A stretch of DNA of 64,000 nucleotides from Acidimicrobiaceae bacterium (GTDB taxonomy: Bacteria; Actinomycetota; Acidimicrobiia; Acidimicrobiales; Aldehydirespiratoraceae), in assembly GCA_009837445.1 (NCBI GenBank), contig VXTM01000007.1, positions 62,001 to 126,000 on the forward strand, written 5' to 3'. The position numbers and the translations under genes are program-made. Positions within the stretch are counted from its first letter, which is position 1. Every line of letters starts with the position of its first letter. The notes beneath the pieces were generated by a model that was given only the letters and a program-made list of their open reading frames with translations, ran no database searches and was not told the DNA's origin. Of this stretch, positions 11,465 to 49,718 are shown one piece after another.

Positions 11465-12435
11465 CCCGACAGCCATCGCAGATAGTCGGCCACCGCGACG
11501 TCCATCGGGTACTCCACCTTGTAGCCGAGGTCGCGGCGGGCGGCGGTCAGGTCCATGGGGCTAGTCGGGTTGCCGTACTTGGTCATCGAGTCCTCCTGGG
11601 TGATCTCCAGGTCGATCGGGCGGCCCGCGGCCTGCTCGATCTGCTCGATGATGACCGCGATGGTGAGGAGCTCTCCCATGGTGGCGTTGTAGACCCGGTT
11701 GGGGACTGCGGGCGCGAAGGCGGCCTTCACCAGGCCCTGGGCGCCGTCGACGGAGTACGTGTAGTCCATGCCCTGGCGGTGCAGGTCGGCCTCGGCGATG
11801 CGGTACGTGTGCCCGTAGTGGGCGCACTCGATGAGCTGCTTGAGCAGCTTGCTGGGCCCGCCGCCGGGCACGCCGTGCCACGGGCCGAACACGCCACCGA
11901 AGCGGACCACGGCGGTGTCGAGCCCGTAGGAGTCGGCGTAGTTGTGGCACAGCCACTCAGACGCCAGCTTCATCGAGGCGTACAGCGACGGCGGGTACTC
12001 GCTGACCACGTTGAGGTTGAAGTCCTCGACGGTGTCGTCGGCGGGGGCGACACTTCGCCGGCCCATGGTCACCACCGTCGAGCTGCAGAACACCACCCGG
12101 GCCAGACCAGCCATCCGGGCCGCCTCCAGCACGTTGAGGGTGCCCATGACGTTCACCCGCACTCCGGCCACCGGCCGGGGGATCAGGTCCCGGGTCAGCA
12201 GGGACGCGGTGTGGATGATCCGCTCCACGCCGTGGGACTCGATGGCCCGGAGCAGGTCGCCGATGTCGCCGACGTCGCCCTTGACCAGCTCCACCGAACC
12301 GAGGTCGAGACGCTCGGACAGGTTCCGCTCGCTGAAGGCGATGTCGTAGAGGACCGGCCGCTCGTCCCGCTCCTCAGCGATGCGGGCCGCAGCAAGCGAC
12401 CCGATCATCCCTGCGCCGGTGATGAGGGTGGTCAT
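11461..12435 (-). CDS. NAD-dependent epimerase/dehydratase (extended SDR)
   Basis: A 324-residue extended short-chain dehydrogenase/reductase. The N-terminus has the Rossmann motif TGAGMIG at residues 6-12, and the catalytic YxxxK appears as YASMK with an upstream Ser-rich stretch (CSSTVV). HTASLL and FGGVFGPWHG are also family-like. Substrate classes include nucleotide sugars and sterol or lactone intermediates. It is translationally coupled to the amidohydrolase. A TTGTCTACAC site lies 35 bases upstream, between this gene and the divergent GntR regulator. Confidence 0.9.
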   Translation of the reverse strand: MTTLITGAGMIGSLAAARIAEERDERPVLYDIAFSERNLSERLDLGSVELVKGDVGDIGDLLRAIESHGVERIIHTASLLTRDLIPRPVAGVRVNVMGTLNVLEAARMAGLARVVFCSSTVVTMGRRSVAPADDTVEDFNLNVVSEYPPSLYASMKLASEWLCHNYADSYGLDTAVVRFGGVFGPWHGVPGGGPSKLLKQLIECAHYGHTYRIAEADLHRQGMDYTYSVDGAQGLVKAAFAPAVPNRVYNATMGELLTIAVIIEQIEQAAGRPIDLEITQEDSMTKYGNPTSPMDLTAARRDLGYKVEYPMDVAVADYLRWLSG

Positions 12436-22210: not shown

Positions 22211-23424
22211 TGAACGACCCCGGCCACTCCCGGATCCCGATGATCGTCAGCGTGGACGACCACGTGGTGGAGCCGCCCCATGTGTGGCAGGAGTGGCTGC
22301 CGACCAAGCACCGGGACGCCGGCCCGAGAGTCGAGCGGCACCGCCTCGGCGAGCTGAGCTACACCGCCGGCACCACCTACACCTACGACCTCGACCCGGC
22401 CGACGGCTCCGGCGAGTGGTGCGACATCTGGTTCTACGAGGACGGCATGTACCCCCACAAGCGCCACGTGGCCGCGGTCGGGTTCGACCGCGACGACATG
22501 ACGCTGTCGCCGATCACCTACGACGAGATGCGCCCCGGCTGCTACCAGCCCGAGGCCCGGGCGGCCGACATGCTGGCCAACCACGTCGACCGGTCGCTCA
22601 GCTTCCCGACGTTCCCCCGCTTCTGCGGCCAGACCTTCTACGAGGCCGGCGACCGCGAGCTCGCGCTGGCCTGCATCCACGCCTACAACGACTGGATGGT
22701 CGAGGAGTGGTGCGCGCAGAGCGACGGGGTGCTGGTGCCGCTCATCATCATCCCGCTGTGGGACGCCGAGCTGGCCGCGGCCGAGGTCCGGCGCAACGCC
22801 GAGCGGGGCTGCCGGGCGGTGTGCTTCAGCGAGATCCCGTCCAAGCTGGGCCTGCCGTCGATCCACACCGGCTTCTACGAGCCGTTCATCACGGCCTGCG
22901 AGGAGACCGGCACCACCATCTGCATGCACATCGGGTCGAGTTCGCAGATGCCGCTGACCTCGGCCGACGCCCCAACGGGGGTGGCGGCCACGCTGAGCTT
23001 CAACAACGCCATGGCGTCGCTGTCGGACTGGCTGTTCTCGGGGATCCTGCCCCGCCACCCGAAGCTGAAGATCGCCTACAGCGAGGGCCAGATCGGCTGG
23101 CTGCCCTACATCCTGGAGCGGGCCGACACCGTGTGGGAGGAGCACCGGGCCTGGGCCGACACCAAGCGGCTGGTGCCCGAGCCCCCGTCGACGTACTGGT
23201 ACCGCCACGGGTTCGGCTGCTTCTTCAGCGACCGCCACGGCCTGGCCAGCCTCGATGAGGTCGGGGTGGACAACGTCACCTTCGAGACCGACTACCCCCA
23301 TACCGACTCCACCTGGCCCAACACGCTGCAGGTGGCGACCGAGATGTTCGCCGGCCTCGACGACGAGACCGTCTACAAGATCGTGCGGGGCAACGCCCTG
23401 AGGATGCTCGAGCTCACCGATTGA
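22210..23424 (+). CDS. amidohydrolase family 2 protein
   Basis: A 404-residue TIM-barrel metal hydrolase. It begins MIVSVDDHVVEPPHVW, a common N-terminus of this actinobacterial subgroup. CMHIGSSSQ supplies a barrel His, and ETDYPHTDSTWP near the end supplies the catalytic Asp. It is coupled to osmC by a one-base stop/start overlap. It differs clearly from the amidohydrolase at 10364, which is about 40 residues shorter. Substrate unknown; relatives act on carboxylated rings or hydrolyse C-N and C-C bonds. Confidence 0.9.
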   Translation: MNDPGHSRIPMIVSVDDHVVEPPHVWQEWLPTKHRDAGPRVERHRLGELSYTAGTTYTYDLDPADGSGEWCDIWFYEDGMYPHKRHVAAVGFDRDDMTLSPITYDEMRPGCYQPEARAADMLANHVDRSLSFPTFPRFCGQTFYEAGDRELALACIHAYNDWMVEEWCAQSDGVLVPLIIIPLWDAELAAAEVRRNAERGCRAVCFSEIPSKLGLPSIHTGFYEPFITACEETGTTICMHIGSSSQMPLTSADAPTGVAATLSFNNAMASLSDWLFSGILPRHPKLKIAYSEGQIGWLPYILERADTVWEEHRAWADTKRLVPEPPSTYWYRHGFGCFFSDRHGLASLDEVGVDNVTFETDYPHTDSTWPNTLQVATEMFAGLDDETVYKIVRGNALRMLELTD

Positions 23425-23496: not shown

Positions 23497-24594
23497 ATGA
23501 ACGACACCCATAAGCCTCGCAAGGCCTATCACGCCCTTCTCATCGCGATCGCAGCGGCATTTGCCCTGATCGCCGCGGCCTGCGGCGACGATGGCGATGA
23601 CACGGCCGACACCGCGCCCGCCACCACGGCCGCGCCCGAGACAACCGCCGCGCCCGAGACGACGGCCGCGCCCGAACCGGCCGCGGAAGCGCCCAAGATG
23701 GCCATCATCTACTCGGCAGAGTGGAACGACGGATCCTGGGGCGAGGCCGCGTTCGACGGCGGCAACAAGCTCCTGGCCGACGGCACCATCTCCGACGTCG
23801 TGATGGTCGAGAACGTGCCTCCGGGAGCCGAGGCCGAGAGAGCGCTGCGCGACTTCGCGGAACAGGGGTACAACCCGATCGTGGCCCACTCGTTCAACTA
23901 CGGCGACAACGTCAAGACCGTCGGCGCCGAGTTCCCCGACACGATCTTCGCCTACGCGGGCGGCTTCGGCGATGTGGCCGGCAATGTCGGCGACTACGAC
24001 CAGCCGTTCTACGAGGCGTCCTACCTCTCGGGCATCCTCGGAGCCGGGGCCACCGACGGCGGGAACGTCGCCGGCGCCGGCGGCTTCGAGATCCCGGTCT
24101 GCGTAGGGATGTACCACGCCTACCTGGCCGGGGCCCGCGAGCTCAGGCCCGAGACCGAGGGCTCGTTCGTGGCCGTCGGCGACTGGATCGACGTTCAGCT
24201 GGCCAAGGAGGCCGCCCTCTCGCAGGCCGACGCCGGGGCGACGATGTTCGTGGGTTGCGGCCAGGGCCCGACCTTCGGGCAGATCGAGGCAGCCAACGAC
24301 ATCGGCGGCGTGTCCACCGGCTACGTGGGTGACATGGCCGCACTCGGCGAGTCCGTACTGAGCTCCTTCGTCTGGCGTCTCGACCGGGTGTTCGAGCAGA
24401 TGGTCGCCGATGTGGCCGCGGGCCAGACCGAGGCCCGCTACTACTCGGTGCCCCTGGCCAACGGCGGGATGGACGTCCTGATCTCTCCCGGAGGTGAGGC
24501 GAAGATCTCCCAGGAGGCGCTCGACCTGTTCGACCAGCGACTCTCGGAGATCCAGGACGGCAGCTTCGCCGTGCCCTTCGTAGGCGAGAACTGA
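23497..24594 (+). CDS. BMP family ABC transporter substrate-binding lipoprotein
   Basis: A 365-residue lipoprotein: lipobox LIAAAC (Cys29), a short linker of TTAAPE repeats, then a BMP/PnrA-type domain from about residue 65 (MAIIYSAEWNDGSWGEAAFD). Characterised members of this family (TmpC/PnrA, Med/BmpA) bind purine nucleosides. AHSFNYGDNVKTVGAEFPD and VGCGQGPTFGQIEAA fit the family fold. It heads a four-gene import operon ending at 28211. The operon converges with the NdmCDE-like genes, which makes a purine-related ligand plausible but not proven. Confidence 0.92.
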   Translation: MNDTHKPRKAYHALLIAIAAAFALIAAACGDDGDDTADTAPATTAAPETTAAPETTAAPEPAAEAPKMAIIYSAEWNDGSWGEAAFDGGNKLLADGTISDVVMVENVPPGAEAERALRDFAEQGYNPIVAHSFNYGDNVKTVGAEFPDTIFAYAGGFGDVAGNVGDYDQPFYEASYLSGILGAGATDGGNVAGAGGFEIPVCVGMYHAYLAGARELRPETEGSFVAVGDWIDVQLAKEAALSQADAGATMFVGCGQGPTFGQIEAANDIGGVSTGYVGDMAALGESVLSSFVWRLDRVFEQMVADVAAGQTEARYYSVPLANGGMDVLISPGGEAKISQEALDLFDQRLSEIQDGSFAVPFVGEN

Positions 24595-24629: not shown

Positions 24630-26171
24630 TTGGACCAGTCACAGCCGCCAGCACAAGCTCCAGCCGCCGTGATGCGGTCGGTGTCACGTCGCTTCGGCGA
24701 GACCGTCGCGCTGGACGGCGTGGACTTCGAGGCGCGCCCCGGCGAGATACACGCTCTGCTCGGGGCCAACGGGGCAGGCAAGACGACGCTCATGCGGATA
24801 CTGGCCGGCCTCGACCGCCCCGACACCGGGACTGTCGAGGTATTCGGCCAGCGCATAGAGAACTTCGAGCCCGGACCCATACGAGCACTCGGAGTGGCGC
24901 TGGTTCAGCAGCACTTCACGCTGGTGCCCACCCTGACCGCGTCGGAGAACCTGGTGCTGGCCCGTCCCGAGGGAGCGCTCCTGCCCCCCGGCCGGACGGC
25001 CGGCGTACGGGTCCAGAAGCTGGTCGAGCAATTCGGTCTGGAGGTGCGCGACGGGGTGCCCGCTTCGCAGCTGTCGGTGGGCGAGCGACAGCGGCTCGAG
25101 ATCCTGCGGGCTCTCGACGCCGACGCCAAGATCCTCCTGCTGGACGAGCCGACCGCGGTGCTGACCGACGTCGAGGCCGAACGGCTTCTCGGCGTGGCCC
25201 GCGCCCTCGCCGACCAGGGTCGGGCCCTGGTAGTGATCACCCACCGTCTTGCCGAGGTCGAAGCCTGCGACCGGGTGACGGTCCTGCGGGAGGGGATCGA
25301 GGCGATAAGCGACGGCGCGGTCGACGGTTACACCCGGGCCGATCTGGCCTCGGCCATGATCGGTACCGACACCTCGGGAACGATCACGGCGCGGACCAGC
25401 CGCCGAACCCAGGCAGCCCCGGTTTGCCTGCGGGTCCGGGACGTGTCGCTGGGACGGGTGTCCAGCCTGTCTCTCGACGTCGGCGAGGGCGAGATCGTGG
25501 GCATCGCCGGTGTCGACGGAAACGGCCAGTCCGAGCTGGAGGCGGCCCTGTCGGGCAGGAGCGCAGCCGAGTCGGGCGAGGTCTCCATCAGCGGAGAACC
25601 GATCGCTCCCGGAGACCCGCGGTCCCGCCGGGGTCAGGGCCTGGCCTACATCCCGTCGGACCGCTATTCGTGGGGCCTGATCGGGCCGATGGACCTCGCG
25701 GACAACCTCGAACTGGGCCGGGTCCTCCCCATCCGGCCTAATCGACCCGCCCGCCACAAGGCAGCCCGCCCGTCACTGGACCACTGGGATGTGCGCACAG
25801 CCGGGCCGCACGCCAGAACGAGCTCCCTGTCGGGCGGCAACGCCCAGAAGCTGGTCCTGGCCCGGGAGCTGGACGAGCACCCCAGCGCGGTGCTGGCGTG
25901 CTACCCGACACGGGGCCTCGATCCCGAGGCGGCCGACACGGTGGCCACCCGTCTCGTGGCCGCAGCCGAAGCCGGCTGCGCAGTCCTGTGGATCGGAGCT
26001 GAGCTCGACGAGTTGCTGGCGGTGTCCGACCGGATCGAGGTGCTGTACGACGGCACCCTGTTCGGCCCGTACCTGCCGCCCTTCGACCGGGCTGCAATCG
26101 GCCTGGCCATGGCGGGCGACGCGGCCGACAGGGCCCGCTCCGCAACCGGCGGGGAGGCGGGCCCGCCATGA
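24630..26171 (+). CDS. BMP-type ABC transporter, two-domain ATP-binding protein
   Basis: A 513-residue double ABC ATPase of the sugar/nucleoside class. Domain 1 has Walker A GANGAGKTT, signature LSVGERQR and Walker B LLLDEPTAVL. Domain 2 (from about 265) has the degenerate Walker A GVDGNGQSE, signature LSGGNAQK and LACYPTRGLDPEA, as expected for this family, in which domain 2 is often non-catalytic. Start is TTG at 24630, 35 bases after the lipoprotein stop. It powers the two permeases that follow. Confidence 0.92.
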   Translation: MDQSQPPAQAPAAVMRSVSRRFGETVALDGVDFEARPGEIHALLGANGAGKTTLMRILAGLDRPDTGTVEVFGQRIENFEPGPIRALGVALVQQHFTLVPTLTASENLVLARPEGALLPPGRTAGVRVQKLVEQFGLEVRDGVPASQLSVGERQRLEILRALDADAKILLLDEPTAVLTDVEAERLLGVARALADQGRALVVITHRLAEVEACDRVTVLREGIEAISDGAVDGYTRADLASAMIGTDTSGTITARTSRRTQAAPVCLRVRDVSLGRVSSLSLDVGEGEIVGIAGVDGNGQSELEAALSGRSAAESGEVSISGEPIAPGDPRSRRGQGLAYIPSDRYSWGLIGPMDLADNLELGRVLPIRPNRPARHKAARPSLDHWDVRTAGPHARTSSLSGGNAQKLVLARELDEHPSAVLACYPTRGLDPEAADTVATRLVAAAEAGCAVLWIGAELDELLAVSDRIEVLYDGTLFGPYLPPFDRAAIGLAMAGDAADRARSATGGEAGPP

Positions 26172-26202: not shown

Positions 26203-27339
26203 ATGACGTCCTCCGAAACGCGCCAGCCCACTTCCGGGACGACCCCCTCACCGGAGTCGACTTGGCCCCCGAAACTCGACGGCTGGCTGGACGCGGTGGC
26301 CCGCCGGGCCACCGCCGAGGGGATCCTGTCGTCGATCCTGGTGCCGGTGGTCTCCGCGCTGGCAGCGCTGCTAGTGGGCGGCGTGCTGATAGCCATCGAC
26401 GGCGTCAACCCGCTGTCGGTGTACCACGCCATCCTCCAAGGCGTCTTCACCAAGTCGAGGGGGTTCAGCTACACGGCCACGGTGGCGACCCCCCTGGTGC
26501 TGATCGGCGTCGGCTATGCGCTGGCCTACAGGGCCCGGGTGTTCACCATCGGCGGCGAGGGCCAGTACCTGGTGGGCGCGGTGGCGGGCACGGCCGTAGT
26601 GACCGCAGGCGGCATCGGCGACCTTCCCCGCGTAGTGCTCATCGTGATAGGCCTCGGTGCGGCCATCGTGGCCGGAGCGCTCTGGGGAGGGCTGGCGGGA
26701 GTGCTGGCCAACCGGTTCGGGGCGAGCATCGTGATCTCCACGCTGATGCTGAGCTTCATCGGCGACAGCCTCCTGCAATGGGCGGTTCGCGACGGCATCC
26801 GCGACCCGGAGTCCTACAACGCCAACAGCCGGCCTATCACGGCGGCCGCGCTACCCAGCTTCTTCGGGCAGAAGACCCACCTCGGCTTCCTGTTCGCTCT
26901 GGTTCTGGTGCCCATCGCGTGGTGGCTCATCCGGCGGCACCGCTGGGGGTTCCGGATCGACGCCCTCGGCCACAACCCGGGAACGCTCGACGCCAACGAG
27001 TTCTCGTCGGCCAGGGTCACGCTCAGCGTCCTGGTGGTGGCCGGCGGCCTCGCCGGCCTTGCCGGGATGGTCGAGACCACCGGTGTGAACATCCGCCTGG
27101 GTCAGGAGGCCTCGGTCGGCTACGGCTGGGACGCGATCATCGTGGCGCTGATCGGCCGCCTCCATCCCGTCGGGGTGCTGATCGCGGGGTTGGGCATGGC
27201 CGGGCTCACAATCGGCTTCGAGTCGGCCCAGCGCCAGTTCGAGCTGCCCTCGTCGCTGGTGTCGCTTATCACGGCCTTCGTCATCATCTTCGTGGTGTGG
27301 GGAGACGCCATCGCGGCCCGCTGGAAAGAGACCCGCTGA
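26203..27339 (+). CDS. BMP-type ABC transporter permease 1
   Basis: A 378-residue permease of the NupP/YufP type (BPD_transp_2 family) with about nine membrane segments. GGEGQYLVGA and the EAA-like region around GHNPGTLDANEFSSARV are characteristic. The ATG at 26203 (MTSSETRQP) begins a hydrophilic N-terminal tail of about 40 residues. Its stop overlaps the next permease start (TGATG). Together the two permeases form the membrane channel of the importer. Confidence 0.9.
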   Translation: MTSSETRQPTSGTTPSPESTWPPKLDGWLDAVARRATAEGILSSILVPVVSALAALLVGGVLIAIDGVNPLSVYHAILQGVFTKSRGFSYTATVATPLVLIGVGYALAYRARVFTIGGEGQYLVGAVAGTAVVTAGGIGDLPRVVLIVIGLGAAIVAGALWGGLAGVLANRFGASIVISTLMLSFIGDSLLQWAVRDGIRDPESYNANSRPITAAALPSFFGQKTHLGFLFALVLVPIAWWLIRRHRWGFRIDALGHNPGTLDANEFSSARVTLSVLVVAGGLAGLAGMVETTGVNIRLGQEASVGYGWDAIIVALIGRLHPVGVLIAGLGMAGLTIGFESAQRQFELPSSLVSLITAFVIIFVVWGDAIAARWKETR

Positions 27340-28211
27340 TGGACACGCTGTTCAGCATCGCCACCGTCGAGGCCGGTATCCGGCTGGGTCTGCCCGTAGC
27401 CCTCGCCGCGCTCGGCGCCATCATCAACGAGCGCAGCGGCGTGCTCAACCTCGGGCTCGAGGGGATGATGCTCTCGGGCGCCCTCGGGGGCTACATCGTG
27501 AACGACGCCACCGGTTCCCCGTGGATCGGCCTGCTTGCCGGTCTACTGGTGGGCGCCTTGACCGGCGGCGTGTTCGCCGGCTTGGTGGTCACCTTCCGGA
27601 CCAGCCAGGTGGTCACCGGGATCGCCTTCACCATCGTGGCCATCGCCGCCACCACCTACCTGTTCCAGCTGCGCTGGGACATCGGCGAGCTGCCGCCGCG
27701 GGTGGAGCGGCTGGGCATGTGGCCCCTGGTCGCTCTGACCCTGGTGTGCGTGGCGGGCGTGTGGTTCCTGTTCCGCCGCACGACGCTCGGCTTGACGATC
27801 AGCGCGGTCGGGGAGTCGCCCGAGTCGGCCGACGCTCTGGGCTACAACGTTGTCCTCATCCGCTGGATGGCGACCATCGCCGGGGGCGCCCTGGCCGGTC
27901 TGGGCGGCGCGGTGCTGGTCAACGGGCCGCTGGGGCTGTTCATCGAGGAGGTCACCGCCGGCCGGGGCTGGGTGGCCCTGGCGCTGGTGGTGTTCGCCGG
28001 ATGGCGGCCGGTTCCTGCGGTGGCCGGCGCCTTCCTGTTCGGGTTGTGCGACGCGGCCCAGCTGCGCCTTCAGGGGACAGCCACAGAGGTGCCCTACGAG
28101 GTGTTCCTGGCGCTGCCGTATGTGGTGACGCTGATCGCGCTGGTGGTCAGGGCCAGGCGCAGCCACACCCCCGCCGCCCTCGGCGATCCCTACGTGCGGG
28201 GAGCCGCCTGA
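27339..28211 (+). CDS. BMP-type ABC transporter permease 2
   Basis: A 290-residue partner permease (NupQ/YufQ type). The N-terminal GAIINERSGVLNLGLEGMML is a strong family signature, and GESPESADALGYNV is the coupling-loop region. About eight membrane segments are visible. It ends 20 bases from the convergent GST-like gene, which means the importer operon and the Ndm-like operon meet tail to tail. Confidence 0.92.
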   Translation: MDTLFSIATVEAGIRLGLPVALAALGAIINERSGVLNLGLEGMMLSGALGGYIVNDATGSPWIGLLAGLLVGALTGGVFAGLVVTFRTSQVVTGIAFTIVAIAATTYLFQLRWDIGELPPRVERLGMWPLVALTLVCVAGVWFLFRRTTLGLTISAVGESPESADALGYNVVLIRWMATIAGGALAGLGGAVLVNGPLGLFIEEVTAGRGWVALALVVFAGWRPVPAVAGAFLFGLCDAAQLRLQGTATEVPYEVFLALPYVVTLIALVVRARRSHTPAALGDPYVRGAA

Positions 28212-28231: not shown

Positions 28232-28876
28232 CTACGCCCGGGCCGGCGCCGCGAAGAAGACTCCCGGCATTGGTGTGAAGCCGTCGATGCGCTTGACCCG
28301 GTCGGTCCAGCGGTGCAGGGCCGGGTAGTCCTGCCGGCTGACGCCGCCCTCCTCCGACAGGATCACGTCCGGGAACAGGGCCAGGTCGGCGATGGTGGGA
28401 TGGTCGGTCGGGACCAGCCAGTCGTAGCCCTCCTGCTCGGCGAACCAGAGGTGCTCGTCGGCCACCCGGAACAGCCGGTGGGCGCCGGCGCGGACCGCGT
28501 CGATGTCGAAGTCGTAGTGCAGCGAGTCATGCAGCCGGGCGGCCGAGGCGGTGCTGGTGGTGCCCTCGCAGAACAGCAGCCACTGGGCCGTCTTGGCCAG
28601 CAGTTCGGGGTCGCTGGTGGGATACCACCGGCCGCTCGGGTCGTACCTGGCGGCCAGGTAGATCAGGATGGCATGGGCGTCTCGCACCATGAAGCCGTCG
28701 TCGTCGAGCACCGGGATGTGCCCCAGCGGGTTGATCTCCAGGAAGGCCTCGGACTTGTGCTCCATGCCCGGGAAGAACTCGATGGTGACCGCCTCGTAGT
28801 CGAGGCCGAGGATGCTGAGGAACAGGCGCTGCTTGTAGCAGTTGGCCGACAGCTCGTAGTTGTAGAGCTTGATCAC
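28232..28876 (-). CDS. glutathione S-transferase-like protein (NdmE-like position)
   Basis: A 214-residue GST-fold protein: thioredoxin-like N-domain (IKLYNYELSANCYKQRLFL, cis-Pro region HIPVLDDDGF, then RDAHAILIYLA) and helical C-domain. The GTG at 28876 has GGGGAGGA upstream. It is the last gene of an operon with a Rieske-containing reductase and a Rieske-less oxygenase. In Pseudomonas putida the GST-like NdmE is needed to assemble NdmC with NdmD, so a structural role is likely here. A true glutathione-dependent activity is less expected, because most actinobacteria use mycothiol. Equivalence with NdmE rests on context. Confidence 0.85.
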   Translation of the reverse strand: MIKLYNYELSANCYKQRLFLSILGLDYEAVTIEFFPGMEHKSEAFLEINPLGHIPVLDDDGFMVRDAHAILIYLAARYDPSGRWYPTSDPELLAKTAQWLLFCEGTTSTASAARLHDSLHYDFDIDAVRAGAHRLFRVADEHLWFAEQEGYDWLVPTDHPTIADLALFPDVILSEEGGVSRQDYPALHRWTDRVKRIDGFTPMPGVFFAAPARA

Positions 28877-28887
28877 CGCGTCCTCCC

Positions 28888-30690
28888 CTACAGGTCGAGC
28901 ACGAGGCGATCGGAGGTCGCCCGGGACACGCAGGTAAGCATCCGGTCGCCGGCCGCCCGCTCCGAGCGACTCAGATAGACGTCCTGGTGGAGGATCTCGC
29001 CTTCCAGCACCGACGCCAGGCAAGTGCCGCAGGCACCCTGCTCGCACGACGACGGCATGTCTATGTCGTGCGCTCGCAGCGCCTCGAGCACGGTCTGGGC
29101 CGACTCGACCCGAAGCGTCAACCCGGAGCGGGCCAGCGCCACATCGAACGCGGTGGAGTCGTCGATCTCGTTGGGGTTGGCGAAATACTCGAAGTGCACC
29201 GACTCCTCGGGCCAGCCGAGTTCGTCGGCGATCCCGGAGGTGGCCTCGATCATCGGTGCGGGCCCGCACACGTACAACTGAGCCGAGAGGGTGTGCTCGC
29301 CCAGGATCCGCCCGATCTCTTCGGTCGTCCGCTGCGGCGACAGCCCCAGATGCTCGACCACGGAGTCACCGCACGACGACACCAGCTCACCGAACGGCAG
29401 GAACCGGCGGTCCCGGACGAAGACGTGCATCTCGAAAGCCAGACCGGACTGGCGCAGCGTCTGGGCCATCGACAGCAGCGGGGTGATCCCGATCCCGCCG
29501 GCCAGCAGCACCGTGCGCTCGGACGCCCGGCTGAGGGTGAAGTTGTTGCGGGGCTCCGAGATGGCCAGCACGTCACCCTCGCGGACCGTCTCGTGGAGGC
29601 ATACCGATCCACCGCTGGACTCCGGCTCGAGCTTCACCCCGATGCGGTAGCAATCCGACTCGCCGGGACCGTTGGTCAGCGAGTATTGGCGGACCAGGCC
29701 GTTGGGCAGGTGGACGTCGATGTGGGCGCCGGCCTGGAATCCGGGTAGCGGCGAGCCGACCGGCTCCAACTCGAAGCCGGCCACGTCGGCGGCTGCGGAC
29801 CATTTGCGGGCGACCCGGACACGCAGCGGCGCCCTCCGGCCTGCGCCCAGCTCGGGCATGCCGGACAGCTCCACGGTCACCGGCACGATCTCCACTTGGA
29901 TCGGCTCCGGCATCGGCTCGAGCGCGGCCTGCTCCTCGACCCGGTCGCGCAGCCGGCTCAGCAGGTGATTGTGGTGCCGGAGCACGGCGAGGCGAGACGG
30001 CGCGGGCGGCCGGGCGTCGAGCACGCCCCGGATCACGCTGCGGTGGGCGTCGACGGGCTGGACCCACAGCACGACGTGCGTCTCGTCGTCTCCGTCGGCG
30101 GCTCGCAGAGTGACCCGCAGGTCGTCCCGCTCCACGGTGGCCACATCCCATTCGCCCACGGGGGATCGGTACGAGCGCCAGTCCGCGGCGGCACCGGGGT
30201 GTTGCGTCACTGCCGCGGACGGCTGGAACCGGTAGCCGGCCAGCGCATCGGCCACCTTCGCGGGCGGGGCGTTCACAACGATGGGGCGCAGCGGCGTGGG
30301 AGCGCCCGCCTCCAGCAGGTCCACGGCCGGAGGGCCGGCCTGCCCGGAGTCTTGCGGCTCGACGGATCCCCACACCAGGCCGTAGCGCTCGGCCACCGGG
30401 TAGGTGCGGTTGCAGACCGAGCGGGCCGGGGCGTCGGCGGGATGAGCGGGGATGTACGTGCAGCCCGCGGTGCGGTTGGCGTAACGCCATCCGTGGTAGC
30501 GGCACATGAGCTCGGCGCCGTCGTTGATGCCCAGGGTGAGCCGGCTCCCCCGGTGCAGGCAGCGGTTCTCCCAGAGGTTGACGGCGTCGTCGTCGGCCCG
30601 CCAGGCGACCAGCTCGCGGCCCGAGATCTGAGCGTGGTATGTGGTGCGGTAGGTCAGGTCGGCCGATGACGCGACCGGATGCCACGTCAT
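28888..30690 (-). CDS. NdmD-like reductase: Rieske domain + FMN/NAD reductase + plant-type ferredoxin
   Basis: A 600-residue electron-transfer fusion. Residues about 1-115 form a Rieske domain with ligands Cys44-x-His46 and Cys63-x2-His66 (CLHRG, CRYHGWRY). Residues about 120-260 look like a remnant of a Rieske-oxygenase catalytic domain without the iron motif. A ferredoxin-reductase-like part follows: RQYSLTN (334-340, FMN binding), GGIGITP (398-404, NAD binding), CGPAPM. The C-terminus is a plant-type [2Fe-2S] domain with Cys549, Cys554, Cys557 and Cys587. Ordinary VanB/PDR reductases lack the Rieske domain; NdmD has it, at a similar length. It overlaps the upstream oxygenase gene by four bases. 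Confidence 0.93.
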   Translation of the reverse strand: MTWHPVASSADLTYRTTYHAQISGRELVAWRADDDAVNLWENRCLHRGSRLTLGINDGAELMCRYHGWRYANRTAGCTYIPAHPADAPARSVCNRTYPVAERYGLVWGSVEPQDSGQAGPPAVDLLEAGAPTPLRPIVVNAPPAKVADALAGYRFQPSAAVTQHPGAAADWRSYRSPVGEWDVATVERDDLRVTLRAADGDDETHVVLWVQPVDAHRSVIRGVLDARPPAPSRLAVLRHHNHLLSRLRDRVEEQAALEPMPEPIQVEIVPVTVELSGMPELGAGRRAPLRVRVARKWSAAADVAGFELEPVGSPLPGFQAGAHIDVHLPNGLVRQYSLTNGPGESDCYRIGVKLEPESSGGSVCLHETVREGDVLAISEPRNNFTLSRASERTVLLAGGIGITPLLSMAQTLRQSGLAFEMHVFVRDRRFLPFGELVSSCGDSVVEHLGLSPQRTTEEIGRILGEHTLSAQLYVCGPAPMIEATSGIADELGWPEESVHFEYFANPNEIDDSTAFDVALARSGLTLRVESAQTVLEALRAHDIDMPSSCEQGACGTCLASVLEGEILHQDVYLSRSERAAGDRMLTCVSRATSDRLVLDL

Positions 30691-31595
30691 GCGGCCTCCG
30701 GGACGACGCCGTAGGTGATGCCGAGGTCCGACAGCCACCGCCGGTACGTGATCGAGGACTTGTCGGCCCGGATCGGCGTCTCGGCCCGGGGGGCGAGGGG
30801 AAGACGCCGGGGCATCTGGTTCTCGATGATCGGCTTGTCCTGCCCGAAGATCTTCTGCTGGAAGATCTTCAGCTCGGAGTCGGTGTTCGTGTGGTCGACC
30901 ATGCACAGGAAGTTGTGGGCCACGATCTGCTCCTCGGTCACCGCCTGGACGAAGATGGCGATGGCGTCCAGGCGGCTGGGGTCGGGCGGCGCCGTCTTGT
31001 AGAGCATGGCCACGTAGGGATGCGGAACCCGGTAGGTGTACTCGGTCATCTGGCCCTTGGTGGCGGCCAGCGCCGCGAGCGGTTGGTAGAACAGGCAGCG
31101 GGTGGCCAGGACCTCGTTGTCCTCGGTGATGTCGACGTCGTACTCGACCACCTCGGTATGGGGCTCGACACCGAGGATGCCGGTGTGAACGTACGGGAAG
31201 TGGCCCATGTCGAGGAAGTTCTCCACGGCCCGGGGCGCCGAGGTGTGCACCCCGATCGAGGCGGCCGCGAAAGTGCGGCGGTCGGATTCGTCGAACTCGG
31301 GAATGGAGAACAGCCGGTCCGGCGGGTCTCCGTACGAGGTCCAGATGAAGCAGAACCGGTCGATGACGGGAAGACGCTCAGTGATCCGGGCTGCGTCGAC
31401 GGGCATGCCCGGCCGGAGCGCCGGATCGGCTCGCCACACGACGGGCTGACCGTCACCGTCGAGGGTGTAGCTCACCGGGCTGCCGAGCAGTCGGGTGGTG
31501 TGGACCCGGCCCGGCTTGATCTCGGCCGCGGCAGAGATCGGGTGCCACATGTCAAGGACCACTGGATCGGTACACGGACTCGCTACTCGGGCCAC
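30687..31595 (-). CDS. Rieske-type non-haem oxygenase subunit lacking its Rieske cluster (NdmC-like)
   Basis: A 302-residue catalytic subunit related to VanA-type demethylases. The mononuclear iron site is intact: Asn126-x2-Asp129-x2-His132-x4-His137 in ENFLDMGHFPYVHTG, with Asp253 in FGQDKPIIENQ as likely third ligand. The N-terminus starts as a normal Rieske oxygenase (MWHPISAAAE, LLGSPVSYTL) but jumps from VVWRADPALR to LPVIDRFCFIW, so the CxH/CxxH cluster segment is missing. This is the NdmC arrangement, with the cluster supplied by the NdmD-like partner encoded next. GTG at 31595 has GGAGG seven bases upstream. Expected reaction: O2-dependent N- or O-demethylation; substrate unproven. 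Confidence 0.9.
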   Translation of the reverse strand: MARVASPCTDPVVLDMWHPISAAAEIKPGRVHTTRLLGSPVSYTLDGDGQPVVWRADPALRPGMPVDAARITERLPVIDRFCFIWTSYGDPPDRLFSIPEFDESDRRTFAAASIGVHTSAPRAVENFLDMGHFPYVHTGILGVEPHTEVVEYDVDITEDNEVLATRCLFYQPLAALAATKGQMTEYTYRVPHPYVAMLYKTAPPDPSRLDAIAIFVQAVTEEQIVAHNFLCMVDHTNTDSELKIFQQKIFGQDKPIIENQMPRRLPLAPRAETPIRADKSSITYRRWLSDLGITYGVVPEAA

Positions 31596-31739: not shown

Positions 31740-32876
31740 ATGGACGAGCCAGCCTGGACGATGGGCATCGAGGAGGAGTACCTGCTCGTCGAGCGCGACA
31801 CCGGGGCCCTCATCACCAAGCAGCCTGCCGGCCTGCTGGAGAAGGTGGCCGACCTGCGCCACGGTCTGGTGGCCCGGGAGCTGTTCAGCTCGCAGATCGA
31901 GATCGGCACGGGCGTGTGCACCAACATGAAGGAGCTGCGGGCCGACATCGGGCTGTTGCGCCTGGCGGTGACCGAGGCCGCCGCCGAGTACGGCATGGTA
32001 CCCATCGCAGTCTCGTCCCATCCGTTCGCGAGGTGGCACTCGCAGCAGTACACCGACGCGGAGCGCTACCAGGCCCTCACCAGGGATCTGCAAGCCGTGA
32101 GCCGACGCATGGTCATCTCCGGTCTGCACGTCCACGTCGGCATCGAGGATCCCGACCTGCGGATCGATCTGATGGACCAGGTCGTGTACTTCCTGCCCCA
32201 TCTGCTGGCCCTGTCGACCTCGTCGCCCTTCTGGGAGGGGCGCGACACCGGTCTTAAGTGCTACCGCTTGGCGGTGGGAGAGGCGCTGCCGCGCACCGGG
32301 TTCCCGGAGAAGTTCAGCTCGTGGTCGGACTTCGAGCGCCATGTGGACGTGCTGGTGCAAGCCGGGATCATCGAGGACTCCACCATGGTGTGGTGGCACA
32401 TCCGCCCGTCGGAGCGCTACCCCACCGTGGAGATGCGGGTGACCGACCTGCCCACCAGGATGGAGGACACCATCGCGCTGGCCGCCATGTACGTCTGCCT
32501 GATGAGGATGCTCTGGCGGCTCAAGCTGGAGAACCGCCGCTGGCGCAGCTACGCCAACTTCCTGCTGTCGGAGAACCTGTGGCGGGCCGAGCGCTACGGG
32601 ATAAGCGGCGAGCTCATGGACTTCGGCAAGGGCGTGCTGGTGCCCTTCGTCGACCTGCTGGAGGAGCTGATCGAGTTGGTCATGCCCGACGCCGAGGCCC
32701 TGGACTGCACCGAGGAGATCAAGCACACCCGCACGATCTGCGAGCGGGGCACATCCGCCGACCGCCAGCTCGCGGTCTACCACGGGGCGCTCGGGGAGGG
32801 CGCCACCGAAGACGAGGCCCTCAAGGCCGTGGTCGACTTGCTGATAGCCGACACCCTCGCACCCCCCAGCAGATAG
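31740..32876 (+). CDS. carboxylate-amine ligase, glutamate-cysteine ligase family 2 (YbdK/EgtA-like)
   Basis: A 378-residue ATP-dependent ligase of the GCS2 family, which joins a carboxylate (often glutamate) to an amine. TMGIEEEYLLVE opens the protein, as in YbdK; SGLHVHVG and RPSERYPTVEMRVTD are further active-site segments. AGGAG precedes the ATG at 31740. Family members include weak gamma-glutamylcysteine synthetases and EgtA of ergothioneine synthesis. It is divergent from the Ndm-like operon. A link to glutathione-like thiol supply or to gamma-glutamylation of amines is possible. Confidence 0.88.
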   Translation: MDEPAWTMGIEEEYLLVERDTGALITKQPAGLLEKVADLRHGLVARELFSSQIEIGTGVCTNMKELRADIGLLRLAVTEAAAEYGMVPIAVSSHPFARWHSQQYTDAERYQALTRDLQAVSRRMVISGLHVHVGIEDPDLRIDLMDQVVYFLPHLLALSTSSPFWEGRDTGLKCYRLAVGEALPRTGFPEKFSSWSDFERHVDVLVQAGIIEDSTMVWWHIRPSERYPTVEMRVTDLPTRMEDTIALAAMYVCLMRMLWRLKLENRRWRSYANFLLSENLWRAERYGISGELMDFGKGVLVPFVDLLEELIELVMPDAEALDCTEEIKHTRTICERGTSADRQLAVYHGALGEGATEDEALKAVVDLLIADTLAPPSR

Positions 32877-33198: not shown

Positions 33199-34794
33199 CT
33201 ACCGGTCGGTGGGCCAGACCGGCGGGCATCCCCGGTCGATCCAGACCGCGGCGGCCACCGCGGCGAACACTGCGTCGCTGCCGTTGACCGGTTCGGAGCC
33301 GTCGTCGACCACCTCCACCTGAACGGCTGGCATGTTGGCTGCGCTGACGATGCCGAAGGAGCGAACGGTGAGGTCGTGGACGGTGCCTTCGGGATCGACG
33401 CCGAGCGATTCGCTGGTCACCCACGAGTAGGCCATGTGGGCCGCGCCCGCGCAGTAGGAGCGAAGGACGGTCTCGTCGAGGGTCCGGCCCGCCCGCACCT
33501 GCACTCTGATCGAGCCGTCAGCCTCCACCGTGGCGGTAGCCGAGCCGCCACCGGGACCGGTGATCCAGCCCGGCTCGTCCCGGACCGCGGCCAGCAGCGC
33601 CGCGGCCTCGGCCCAGCCCGCGCCCCTCACCTGCGAGGACGTCGGCGGTCCGGGTAAATCGACCTCGGTCACCGCCAGTCCCGGCGCGTGCGCCCGGATC
33701 GCGGCGGCAATGCCCGGAGTGCGGGCCACCACCATCTCGCCGGTGCCGTCGGGCCGCACACCGGCAGCCACCGGCGGGCGCTTGGGGCCGAGCTCGGCCG
33801 TATCGGGACGGGACCACAGCACCCTCACCGGCTCGCCGTGGCGGTCGGCCAACCGGCGGGCAGCCTCGGCCACCGGCGACTGGAGCTTGCCCCCGAAGGC
33901 GCCGCCGTTGCCGAGCGGGGAGGCGGGCTCGCCGCCGGGCACGCACCAGGCTGCGTCGGTCTCCAGGTACCCGGGCTCGGTCCAGTTCGTGCGCAGGGTG
34001 ACCGCCCAGTCCCCGGCCGGTACCTCCAGCGGCGGATCCCAGCTGGCGGTAGTGCGACGGCCGGGCACGCGGGCCGCGAGCCGTCGAGCCTCGACCAGGG
34101 TCTCGGCCACCACCCAGCCGTCCTCGTCGGCTGCCTCGCAGCCCTCTCCAGCCCGCACCGCCACTAGGGCGCCGTCCGGCGCGGTGTCATCGGCGAAGCC
34201 GCCGGCTCCGAGGGCCACATGAGGCCCGGTCGACTGCGGCGAGCCCCCCTCGATGGTGGCCCGAAGGCCAGCGTCAGCTCGCTGGCCCGGATCGTCAGGT
34301 CCCAGAGCATCGGCTCGGACAACCAGGAGAGGGTAGGCCTCCCAGGCGTCGAGGATGGGCTGCCAGCCGGTGCAGCGGCACAGATGGGCGGCCAGAGCCC
34401 GCGCCGCGGCATCCCGGTCGTCGTGGTCGGCACCCTTGGCCTGCAGACCTGCGAACCGGCAGATGATCCCGGGCGTGCAGAAGCCGCACTGGCTGCCGCC
34501 CGTGGCCGCGAAGGCTCGGGCCCAGCCGTCACGCACTTCGGCGTCGAGCCCTTCGAGGGTGGTGATGGCCCGCCCGGCCACCCGCCGGGCGGGCGTCACG
34601 CACGCAACTCGGGGCTGGCCGTCCACCAGCACCGTGCAGCAGCCGCACTGGCCCTGCGGGCTGCACCCGTCCTTCACCGAGCGCACCCCGAACTGCTCCC
34701 GCAGCACGTCCAGCAGCGTCAACTGCTCGTCAGCGACGGCTACCGCCGTGCCGTCAACGACAATCTCGAAGCCTTCACCAACCCCAGCAGCCAT
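33199..34794 (-). CDS. compact xanthine dehydrogenase-family protein, [2Fe-2S] subunit fused to shortened molybdopterin subunit
   Basis: A 531-residue fusion. Residues about 1-160 carry both iron-sulfur clusters of the small subunit: Cys44/Cys50/Cys53/Cys65 (GCSPQGQCGCC) and Cys103/Cys106/Cys139/Cys141 (QCGFCTPGII, HLCRCTGW). The remaining 370 residues align with part of the molybdopterin subunit: GGAFGGKLQSPVAEAARRLA, then late SEPVNGSDAVFAAVAAAVW, which may keep the active-site Glu. A normal molybdopterin subunit is about twice as long, so much of it is absent. The ATG at 34794 was chosen because the [2Fe-2S] domain begins just after it. It may be a minimal hydroxylase or a non-catalytic relic; xanthine-type substrates are suggested only by the neighbouring NdmCDE-like genes. 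Confidence 0.82.
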   Translation of the reverse strand: MAAGVGEGFEIVVDGTAVAVADEQLTLLDVLREQFGVRSVKDGCSPQGQCGCCTVLVDGQPRVACVTPARRVAGRAITTLEGLDAEVRDGWARAFAATGGSQCGFCTPGIICRFAGLQAKGADHDDRDAAARALAAHLCRCTGWQPILDAWEAYPLLVVRADALGPDDPGQRADAGLRATIEGGSPQSTGPHVALGAGGFADDTAPDGALVAVRAGEGCEAADEDGWVVAETLVEARRLAARVPGRRTTASWDPPLEVPAGDWAVTLRTNWTEPGYLETDAAWCVPGGEPASPLGNGGAFGGKLQSPVAEAARRLADRHGEPVRVLWSRPDTAELGPKRPPVAAGVRPDGTGEMVVARTPGIAAAIRAHAPGLAVTEVDLPGPPTSSQVRGAGWAEAAALLAAVRDEPGWITGPGGGSATATVEADGSIRVQVRAGRTLDETVLRSYCAGAAHMAYSWVTSESLGVDPEGTVHDLTVRSFGIVSAANMPAVQVEVVDDGSEPVNGSDAVFAAVAAAVWIDRGCPPVWPTDR

Positions 34795-34850
34795 AACCCC
34801 GCAGGCTAGATCGGACAAGCGGGATGCCCGAGGAGCGGCTCCGGAACGCG

Positions 34851-35276
34851 TCAGCCCGGTGTCTCCAGGGTCACGCCGGCGAAGCGCAGGAATCCCCTGT
34901 CGTACGACACGACTTCGCAACGGTGCTCAATCGCGAGAGCCGCCAAGTGCGCGTCACTGACGAGGTTCCCTCCAGTCCCCAGCGGATCGAGCAGGTCGCG
35001 TACAAGGGCGAGGTGGCGAGCGGTCGGTTCCACGACTACGGCAGAGGGCTGAGCCAGCCAGTCTTCGGCCTGCCGGATCGCCTCTTGGGGAGACAGAGGG
35101 GCGGGGAACAGGCGACGGCTGGTGGTCAGCCGAAGAAACGCCAGTAGCGCCACCCATGAGAACGCAACGGTGGCACCGCCGCTGAGCGCCCCATCGAGCC
35201 AGTCTCGCGACTCTGGATGCCGGGGCGCGTCCGCGTTGACCGCGTAGATGAGGACATTGGCGTCAACCAGCTTCAC
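34851..35276 (-). CDS. vapC: VapC family PIN-domain toxin
   Basis: A 141-residue PIN-domain ribonuclease. The acidic site is visible as Asp5 in KLVDANVLIYAV, a central Glu region, and Asp residues in LVSDAHLAALA and VSYDRGF. Such toxins cut tRNA or rRNA when not bound by their antitoxin. The start overlaps the VapB stop by four bases, a classic toxin-antitoxin arrangement. Confidence 0.93.
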   Translation of the reverse strand: MKLVDANVLIYAVNADAPRHPESRDWLDGALSGGATVAFSWVALLAFLRLTTSRRLFPAPLSPQEAIRQAEDWLAQPSAVVVEPTARHLALVRDLLDPLGTGGNLVSDAHLAALAIEHRCEVVSYDRGFLRFAGVTLETPG

Positions 35277-47999: not shown

Positions 48000-49718
48000 A
48001 TGCATGTAGTCGCCACCGCCGGCCATGTCGACCACGGCAAGAGCACGCTGGTGCGGGCGCTCACCGGCACCGATCCCGACCGGTGGGACGAGGAGAAGGA
48101 GCGGGGCCTCACCATCGACCTGGGCTTCGCGTCGATGCCGCTGCCGTCGGGGCGCGGGATCGCCTTCATCGACGTTCCCGGCCATGTCCGGTTCCTCAAG
48201 AACATGCTGGCCGGGGTCAGCGGGGTGGACGCCTGCGTGTTCGTGGTGGACGTGACCGAGGGATGGAAACCGCAGTCGGAGGAGCATCTGCGCATCCTGC
48301 AGCTCCTCGGCTTGAGCCACGGAATGGTTGCCCTCACCAAGGCCGGAGACGCCGACGAGGACCTGGTGGAGCTGGCCCGTCTCGACGTGGCCGATCATGT
48401 CGCCGGCACATTCCTGGCCGATGCGCCCATCGTGGCCACCGACGCGGTGGACGGCACCGGAATGGACGAGCTGGTCGCCGCGCTGGACGACCTGCTGGCC
48501 ACCACCCCCACCGCGGCCGACCGCGACCGGCCCCGGCTGTGGGTGGACCGGGCCTTCGCCATCAAGGGGTCGGGCACGGTGGTGACCGGCACGCTCACCG
48601 GAGGGCGGCTCCGCATCGATGACACCCTCGCAGTGGTGCCCGCCGGGCACAGCGTGCGGGTGCGGGCCCTGCAGAGCCTGCACCAGCAGTGCGACGAGTT
48701 GGGTCCCGGCAACCGGGTAGCGGTCAACCTGGCCGGCGCGGGCCACCGTGACGTGGCCCGGGGGGACGCGGTGGTTCGGGCTCAGCAGTGGCACGCGGCC
48801 CGCACCATCGACGCCGAGCTGTCGGTGCTGGCCTCCCTCGACCACCCGGTCACCCGCCGGGGGGCCTACGTGGCCTACATCGGGTCGGGCGAGTACCCGG
48901 TGCGGCTGCGGGTGCTGGGGCCGTCGGCCATCGAGCCGGGCCGGGCCGGGCTGGTGCGGCTCCACCTGCCGGTGCCGCTGCCGCTGTGCATGGGGGACCG
49001 CTTCATCCTGCGCGAGTCGGGCCGCTCCGAGACGGTCGGGGGCGGCGAGGTGCTCGACGTCGACCCGGTGCTACCCGCTTCGAGGGCCCGGCCCGACCGG
49101 TCGGTGGAACGGATCGTCGCCGAGCGGGGCCGGATCGACGCGGCGCGGCTGGAGAGGCTCGCCGGCCGGGCCCGACCGCCCGATCTGGGCCGGTGGGCGG
49201 TGGACCCCGAGTTCCTGGCCCGGACCAGGCAGCGCCTCACCGATGCGGTAGCCGCCGCGGGTCCGCTCGGACTCGACCTGGCCGGGCTCGACGACTTCGA
49301 GCGGACCGTTATCGGCACCATCGACGGCATCACCAGCGGCGAGGGCCGGGCTCGCGCGGCGGGCGGCGACGACCCGCTGGCCGACCATCCGTTCGTGGCC
49401 GCGGCTGCCGCCGAGCCGTTCACGCCCCCCGCTCCAACCAGCGTCAGCAACGACGAACTGCGTCTCCTGGTGCGTCAGGGCCACCTTGTCGAGAGCGGCG
49501 GCATCCACTTCGCGACATCAGCGGTCGACGAGGCCGCAAGGGTGGTGGCTCGGCTGCTGGCCGATCAGCCCGAAGGGGTGACGGTGGCTGAGGTGCGCGA
49601 CGCCTGGGGAGCCACCCGCAAGTACGCCCTGGCCCTGCTGGCCCGGCTGGACAGCACCGGCGTGACCCGGCGGCGAGGCGACCTGCGCATCGCCGGTCCC
49701 CGGCTGCCCGAGCTCTAG
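48000..49718 (+). CDS. selB: selenocysteine-specific elongation factor
   Basis: A 572-residue translational GTPase that carries Sec-tRNA(Sec) to UGA codons next to a SECIS. G1 is GHVDHGKST (8-16), switch II is DVPGH (58-62), and KERGLTIDLGFA is the SelB-type switch I. The C-terminal winged-helix region, which binds SECIS RNA, includes VAEVRDAWGATRKYALALL. AGGAA lies upstream of the ATG. Together with selA it makes the nearby UGSC gene a credible selenoprotein. Confidence 0.96.
   Translation: MHVVATAGHVDHGKSTLVRALTGTDPDRWDEEKERGLTIDLGFASMPLPSGRGIAFIDVPGHVRFLKNMLAGVSGVDACVFVVDVTEGWKPQSEEHLRILQLLGLSHGMVALTKAGDADEDLVELARLDVADHVAGTFLADAPIVATDAVDGTGMDELVAALDDLLATTPTAADRDRPRLWVDRAFAIKGSGTVVTGTLTGGRLRIDDTLAVVPAGHSVRVRALQSLHQQCDELGPGNRVAVNLAGAGHRDVARGDAVVRAQQWHAARTIDAELSVLASLDHPVTRRGAYVAYIGSGEYPVRLRVLGPSAIEPGRAGLVRLHLPVPLPLCMGDRFILRESGRSETVGGGEVLDVDPVLPASRARPDRSVERIVAERGRIDAARLERLAGRARPPDLGRWAVDPEFLARTRQRLTDAVAAAGPLGLDLAGLDDFERTVIGTIDGITSGEGRARAAGGDDPLADHPFVAAAAAEPFTPPAPTSVSNDELRLLVRQGHLVESGGIHFATSAVDEAARVVARLLADQPEGVTVAEVRDAWGATRKYALALLARLDSTGVTRRRGDLRIAGPRLPEL

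Follow-up and report, generated by a model that had tools for sequence, protein, structure and literature searches.

A split Rieske oxygenase gene set in an Acidimicrobiaceae bacterium and its candidate role in N-demethylation

What can the iron subunit of a Rieske oxygenase do when it has no Rieske cluster, and what is the meaning of a neighbouring reductase gene that carries one? The question is raised by three adjacent genes in a stretch of 64,000 nucleotides, here called the window, of contig VXTM01000007.1 (assembly GCA_009837445.1) of an Acidimicrobiaceae bacterium. We refer to these genes as C (catalytic iron subunit), D (Rieske-bearing reductase) and E (glutathione S-transferase (GST)-like protein). 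An earlier note on this DNA had identified them with NdmC, NdmD and NdmE, the 7-methylxanthine N7-demethylase of Pseudomonas putida CBB5. Our analysis leads to a broader reading, to which we assign a probability of roughly 0.6: C, D and E would constitute a split Rieske enzyme that N-demethylates a purine-like heterocycle after its import, with one D/E pair for several C subunits. The components of this reading are not equally secure: it is very likely that the set is a split Rieske oxygenase, likely that it acts as a demethylase, and only somewhat favoured that its substrate is purine-like. The earlier interpretation is thus partly supported: it names the correct kind of system and takes its function too narrowly.

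Complementary losses in the iron subunit and the reductase

The three genes occupy positions 28232-31595 on the minus strand in the order C, D, E; C and D overlap at the sequence ATGA, and the start codon of E lies 11 bases past the stop of D. Their features are the following.

30687..31595, minus strand: C, catalytic subunit of 302 residues, GTG start, VanA_C-type iron domain, no Rieske cluster ligands
31326..31553, minus strand: N-terminal Rieske-fold remnant of C, residues 15-90, cluster loops absent (profile comparison, model, alignment)
31185..31211, minus strand: motif DMGHFPYVH of C, residues 129-137, bridging Asp and two His ligands by homology
30837..30839, minus strand: Asp253 of C, third iron ligand by homology
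28888..30690, minus strand: D, Rieske-containing reductase of 600 residues, of the phthalate dioxygenase reductase (PDR)/VanB type
30493..30561, minus strand: Rieske motif CLHR-n-CRYH of D, residues 44-66 (motif search; Pfam Rieske 2e-14)
29836..30369, minus strand: predicted decayed oxygenase catalytic domain of D, residues 108-285, no DxxHxxxxH
29182..29826, minus strand: flavin/NAD part of D, residues 289-503 (match to 2pia)
28891..29148, minus strand: plant-type [2Fe-2S] domain of D, residues 515-600 (Fer2; NdmD ferredoxin domain 6icm_D)
28232..28876, minus strand: E, GST-like protein, NdmE-like, GTG start (GST families)

A motif search over all 302 residues of C found neither CxH, nor CxxH, nor the combined pattern CxH-n-CxxH, which rules out a hidden Rieske motif. 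The iron-site sequences of C are DMGHFPYVH at residues 129-137 and QD at residues 252-253; among 18 aligned sequences, including that of the window, no variation is seen at D129, H137 or D253, and conservation of H132 is 90% or more. These four residues had been described in the earlier note as an intact iron site, and all of them are indeed present; by homology with other Rieske oxygenases we take H132, H137 and D253 to be the iron ligands, and D129 presumably is not a ligand but the bridging acid that faces the Rieske cluster of the neighbouring subunit. The reverse situation is found in D, whose Rieske ligands are invariant in 40 sequences, whose plant-type ferredoxin cysteines are located at residues 549-587, and whose reductase part has phthalate dioxygenase reductase (2pia) as a match (2e-59); a motif search did not find the iron-site motif DxxHxxxxH in D.

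Single-chain structural models were built for C (from an alignment of 30 rows, five of 35 having been left out) and for D. The model, fold comparison and alignment agree in giving residues 1-290 of D the fold of an oxygenase alpha subunit without iron ligands; as modelled, the extra ~170 residues of D are a decayed oxygenase catalytic domain, and C appears to retain a Rieske-like N-terminus that has no cluster. The losses are therefore reciprocal, each protein having kept the half that the other lost, and the Rieske cluster and the mononuclear iron site with its bridging Asp are present jointly in C and D and in neither alone. Among solved structures, the Rieske hydroxylases SxtT and GxtA (6wn3, 6wnc) come closest in fold to C and, according to Foldseek, also to the N-terminal part of D; unlike C and D, each is a whole alpha subunit that unites cluster and iron site in a single chain. 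In Paracoccus the two halves of D occur as separate genes, for a Rieske protein of 220 residues and a PDR/VanB reductase; because D(1-290) has the alpha-subunit fold and because these unfused halves exist, an origin of D by fusion with an oxygenase subunit, as already proposed in the earlier note, is supported.

The following mechanism is suggested by these features. Within D, electrons from NADH would reach first the flavin, next the plant-type cluster and then the N-terminal Rieske cluster. The final transfer, to the iron of C, would take place between subunits, at a contact that would mimic the head-to-tail one in ordinary trimeric oxygenases. Such intersubunit electron transfer is stated for ordinary oxygenases in PMC12445004, which also lists NdmA/NdmB as alpha3-alpha'3. 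The N-terminal 290 residues of D would correspond to a whole alpha subunit with a dead iron site and C to an alpha subunit with a dead Rieske domain; since the fold is retained in both halves, we infer that the two may fit into each other as pseudo-alpha subunits with complementary defects, and that E takes part structurally. An N-methyl group of the substrate would be hydroxylated to hydroxymethyl and released as formaldehyde. The family shows mutually decayed halves of one ancestral fold, and a layout in which one reductase goes with several catalytic subunits.

Distribution of the three genes

A scan of GTDB contigs returned 395 relatives, the best-scoring 80 of which were kept; these belong mostly to Rhizobiales, then to Acidimicrobiia, the class of the window's own actinobacterial host, and other Actinomycetota, with one Dehalococcoidia metagenome-assembled genome, so that the family spans three phyla with one apparent origin. 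Downstream sequence of 3 kb or more past C is available at 64 loci; 58 of these have both D and E, and one has D only. Since the ratio of nonsynonymous to synonymous substitution rates is 0.07-0.25 in five pairwise comparisons with orthologues from related species, indicating purifying selection on C, D and E, and since D and E are both present at 58 of these 64 homologous loci, chance is excluded, and the gene-level observation made in the earlier note is confirmed. At the level of genomes, D is present in 15 of 51 (the window's own and those of relatives) and E in the identical 15. These 15 genomes contain 47 matches to C above 300 bits versus 23 D (a D in two pieces in genome G018 being counted once); 26 of the 47 C sequences were read, and the Rieske motif is absent from all 26. 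The window's own genome (G000) contains four C, two D and two E, and none of its four C has a Rieske motif. We envisage that in this genus one D/E pair may serve several alternative C subunits.

Some individual loci are worth recording. In Pseudonocardia dioxanivorans (L117) C is accompanied by a divergent D and no detected E, the only such case in the 64 loci. Solitary C genes without D or E nearby occur in Acidimicrobiia (L044, L074, L080, L087, L106), and in L080, L087 and L106 the solitary C is followed by its own BMP-type ATP-binding cassette (ABC) transporter. A fuller cluster is seen in L022 and L025, where C lies beside a complete Rieske oxygenase and E and D converge on them; parts of such a cluster are found in the window genome at the ends of contigs C44 and C51. 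The fourth C paralogue of that genome (L023, G000:C46:33000-48000) adjoins a complete Rieske oxygenase and a TRZ/ATZ-type deaminase-like gene, which resembles 5'-deoxyadenosine deaminase below the cut-off. In total, this 3.9-Mb genome has 20 matches to C, four of them Rieske-less, and 14 weaker matches to the Rieske part of D; it holds a large Rieske oxygenase repertoire. A C with Arg in place of His132 (L038:2403-3350, minus strand, which is L056:5053-6000, plus strand) sits in a C-D-E set; such a subunit could be inactive or bind its iron through other ligands, and an error in the sequence is another explanation.

Neighbouring genes and the substrate

Adjacent to the three genes, and convergent on them, is a BMP-type ABC transporter, which would import the substrate.

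23497..24594, plus strand: BMP-family solute-binding lipoprotein, AtzT-like
24630..26171, plus strand: ABC transporter ATPase, two-domain, sugar/nucleoside type
26203..27339, plus strand: ABC permease 1 (homology to open frames of related loci)
27339..28211, plus strand: ABC permease 2

In many rhizobia a transporter of this type is divergent from the trio or upstream of it; overall, a BMP match is present in 39 of 55 long loci. The best solved relative of the window BMP protein is AtzT, which co-purified with guanine and binds it with a dissociation constant of 110 nM (PMC6834077). Two stacking residues, Trp and Trp, are found in the window protein and in all 18 others compared; at the positions of the AtzT pocket, the window protein keeps Trp194, Ser97 and Phe98 and has Trp for Tyr45, the pair Ser97-Phe98 being kept also in 13 of the 18 others. 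Judged from these residues, the pocket may suit a flat ring and not the amidine edge of guanine.

Further indications come from genes near the relatives. Annotation-free clustering of neighbourhoods gave mostly antisense open frames; among the annotated neighbour clusters, frmA and fghA were pertinent, and lysine-2,3-aminomutase-like, MacA-like, short-chain dehydrogenase/reductase and flotillin-like clusters were not. In 14 of the 80 loci E is followed by a co-directional frmA gene, with 49-109 bases between the matched stretches, in genomes with 1-6 frmA matches each, and fghA is found in 7 of 80; in an earlier, looser clustering the frmA family was present in 18 of 88 loci. Genes of the guanine- or 8-oxoguanine-deaminase type lie near C in 7 of 88 loci (L050, L056, L110, L116, L125, L126, L128), and at a stricter score in only two of 80, L050 and L110. 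The fits are above cut-off for guanine deaminase in L050 and 8-oxoguanine deaminase in L126, and L128 is likewise above cut-off; the L116 protein falls just below one guanine deaminase cut-off and above another, and for L056 and L125 no deaminase fit exceeds its cut-off. In L050 and L110, from two Mesorhizobium genomes, the deaminase is a second, divergent copy, the canonical one being elsewhere in the genome. Finally, two Pseudomonas plasmids carry, along with the trio, a gene annotated as HpxO urate hydroxylase and one for an NCS2 permease. These neighbours suggest demethylation of a purine-like compound, and the guanine and formaldehyde genes beside some relatives hint at a salvage role other than caffeine breakdown. 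They also make the natural substrate directly testable in rhizobia.

Several observations weigh against a purine N-demethylase with this division of labour. The 80 loci are mostly from Rhizobiales, and their counts are not independent; C stands without D or E in five of the 64 loci and D without E in one, and genome G008 has C and neither D nor E. In one 8402-base contig, reached twice (L038 and L056), Arg replaces His132 of C. Confidence in the models, as predicted local distance difference test score, is low at the critical loops (~50-67 for residues 41-90 of D, the Rieske loops, and below 50 for residues 133-148 of C, the iron loop), and the solved structures that most resemble C belong to saxitoxin-pathway hydroxylases of the SxtT/GxtA type, not to demethylases. 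No BMP match is found in 16 of the 55 long loci, nine of them from Devosia; the nearest NCBIfam label of the window transporter, below cut-off, is putative vitamin B6 transporter; and because the acid and amide contacts of AtzT are lost in the window BMP protein (E165 to V, N218 to C, N220 to Q), its ligand is probably other than guanine itself. The window protein and those of L045, L080, L087 and L106 have V or A at position 165, where three other Acidimicrobiia loci (L079, L104, L108) retain E. A frmA match is absent in 66 of 80 loci, and neither frmA nor a guanine deaminase was found beside the window trio: the best frmA-type genes of the window genome are on other contigs. Its formaldehyde dehydrogenase, of the mycothiol type, scores 657 bits against a cut-off of 513 and its best guanine deaminase 347 bits, short of the cut-off of 375; both are encoded on another contig. 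No glutathione-dependent formaldehyde dehydrogenase above cut-off was found in the window genome; since the enzyme there is of the mycothiol type, E may well not be a glutathione enzyme in this host.

It is against this background that a different substrate has to be considered, with the set acting as a hydroxylase or O/N-dealkylase of some other imported aromatic or N-heterocycle (e.g. an alkylated triazine, a pyridine or a sponge alkaloid) and not of a purine. AtzT also binds triazines (PMC6834077), and the difference between its pocket and that of the window protein, the hydroxylases as nearest structures of C, and the 20 C matches of the host genome would all be accommodated by this explanation; we regard it nonetheless as rather unlikely, because frmA and fghA after E in some relatives favour formaldehyde release and purine genes repeatedly accompany the trio in several lineages. 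Homarine was considered as a rival substrate, and the open-licence literature, looked at in part, held nothing bearing on it.

A purine-like substrate for the N-demethylase could be specified further, as a tentative and on balance doubtful extension: the widespread ndmCDE-like clusters might serve, instead of caffeine use, the salvage of N-methylated purine bases from nucleic-acid turnover, 7-methylguanine foremost, and, in marine actinobacteria, of host methylpurine alkaloids, through AtzT-type import, deamination by a guanine deaminase paralogue dedicated to the pathway, demethylation by C-D-E with an interchangeable C for each ring position, disposal of formaldehyde by FrmA/FghA, and then xanthine breakdown. 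No report of a methylpurine-salvage role for NdmCDE-like genes was found in the open-licence literature searched. A sponge origin of the genus has bin names as its only basis and is unproven; in one sponge paper the prefix SB0677 stands for a Nitrospira.

Relation to NdmCDE and other systems

The window set shares with NdmCDE, described as very unique among Rieske oxygenases (PMC4408171), the Rieske-less iron subunit, the Rieske-bearing reductase and the GST-like partner, which is required in the CBB5 system; it differs in belonging to another phylum and in having a BMP-type ABC transporter alongside. The NdmCDE complex was termed unsolved in May 2026 (PMC13237722). Could the set be a true NdmCDE orthologue, that is, the N7-demethylase of 7-methylxanthine in a caffeine-type methylxanthine breakdown? 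Architecture and gene order are the same, the NdmD ferredoxin domain is among the relatives of D, and marine animals are reported to contain theophylline, 3-methylxanthine and caffeine (PMC5793054). The closest kin of CBB5 NdmCDE are reported from Janthinobacterium, Klebsiella and Pseudomonas TJI-51 (PMC4408171), and as stand-ins for CBB5 NdmC we used the C-D-E sets of Pseudomonas pKF715A (L123) and a Klebsiella plasmid (L124). Window C is 45% identical to these NdmC-like plasmid proteins, and window D and E are 33% and 48% identical, respectively, to those of pKF715A; to the NdmD ferredoxin domain, window D has 41% identity, versus 66% for pKF715A and 65% for the Klebsiella plasmid. In the main tree of C (62 rows, the long rows L125 and L126 having been dropped beforehand) all 57 Rieske-less rows form one clade (support 100/99), within which the stand-ins group with C2, the rhizobial tandem partner (17 rows, 98/86), and window C falls outside them in a separate clade of 38 rows (92/96). 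A joint clade of window C and the stand-ins is rejected (approximately unbiased test, p 0.006), and a quick tree that includes the long rows gives the same two groups, with weaker support (83) for that of the stand-ins. By sequence, then, window C lies in a sister clade to the NdmC stand-ins, and the comparison by this proxy does not show orthology to NdmC behind the NdmCDE-like architecture. The identification with NdmC, NdmD and NdmE made in the earlier note is not supported in this respect: with C outside the stand-in clade and D only 41% identical to the NdmD ferredoxin domain, N7-demethylation of 7-methylxanthine cannot be inferred for the window set. Moreover, ndmA and ndmB, like frmB, were not found beside the window trio, whose identified neighbours are the BMP ABC transporter, an amidohydrolase, a YbdK ligase and a xanthine dehydrogenase-like protein. 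A true orthologue is hence improbable.

Homologues of ndmCDE of unknown function had been reported in Sinorhizobium and Mesorhizobium (Summers et al. 2013, via PMC4408171). Their C and D are ~57-61% and ~51-59% identical to those of the window, E is adjacent, and most have the BMP ABC transporter; they differ in that many have two tandem C (C2 and C1), a GntR regulator and in some cases frmA, whereas in the window C1 has no tandem partner and the transporter is convergent. The N-demethylases NdmA and NdmB belong to the same superfamily and depend on NdmD; unlike C, they keep Rieske cluster and iron in one chain. That D is just a general reductase for the complete Rieske oxygenases of the genome, its own Rieske cluster not being used for C, is very improbable: NdmD does serve the complete NdmA and NdmB (PMC4408171), D-less C genes and complete oxygenases share loci, and G008 has C with no D or E, but the Rieske ligands of D do not vary, C has no cluster of its own, and a complete oxygenase (its motif read in L019) is present in G011, which lacks D and E alike.

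NdmCDE and its rhizobial homologues are already known. New, as far as the searched literature shows, are the Acidimicrobiia branch with several C per D and its sister-clade position, and likewise the reciprocal decay in the models, the unfused halves, and the context of transporter, formaldehyde and guanine deaminase genes that points to methylpurine use beyond caffeine breakdown.

Other genes of the window may be mentioned. A YbdK-type carboxylate-amine (glutamate-cysteine) ligase (31740-32876, plus strand) is divergent from C and adjoins the trio in only three close relatives (L041-L043) among the loci compared. Two Amidohydro_2 hydrolases are encoded at 22213-23424 (plus strand), just upstream of the BMP transporter, and at 10364-11476 (minus strand). 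A protein of 573 residues (33199-34920, minus strand) combines a xanthine-dehydrogenase-type FeS part with a shortened Mo-domain-like part (MoCoBD_1 weak, below cut-off); it is 93-94% conserved in two near relatives and has weaker matches of 33-39% in five other loci, and given its odd fusion it was considered and not used as support for a pathway. Lastly, a SelB-type selenocysteine elongation factor (Pfam) is encoded at 48000-49718 (plus strand), and the organism may use selenocysteine.

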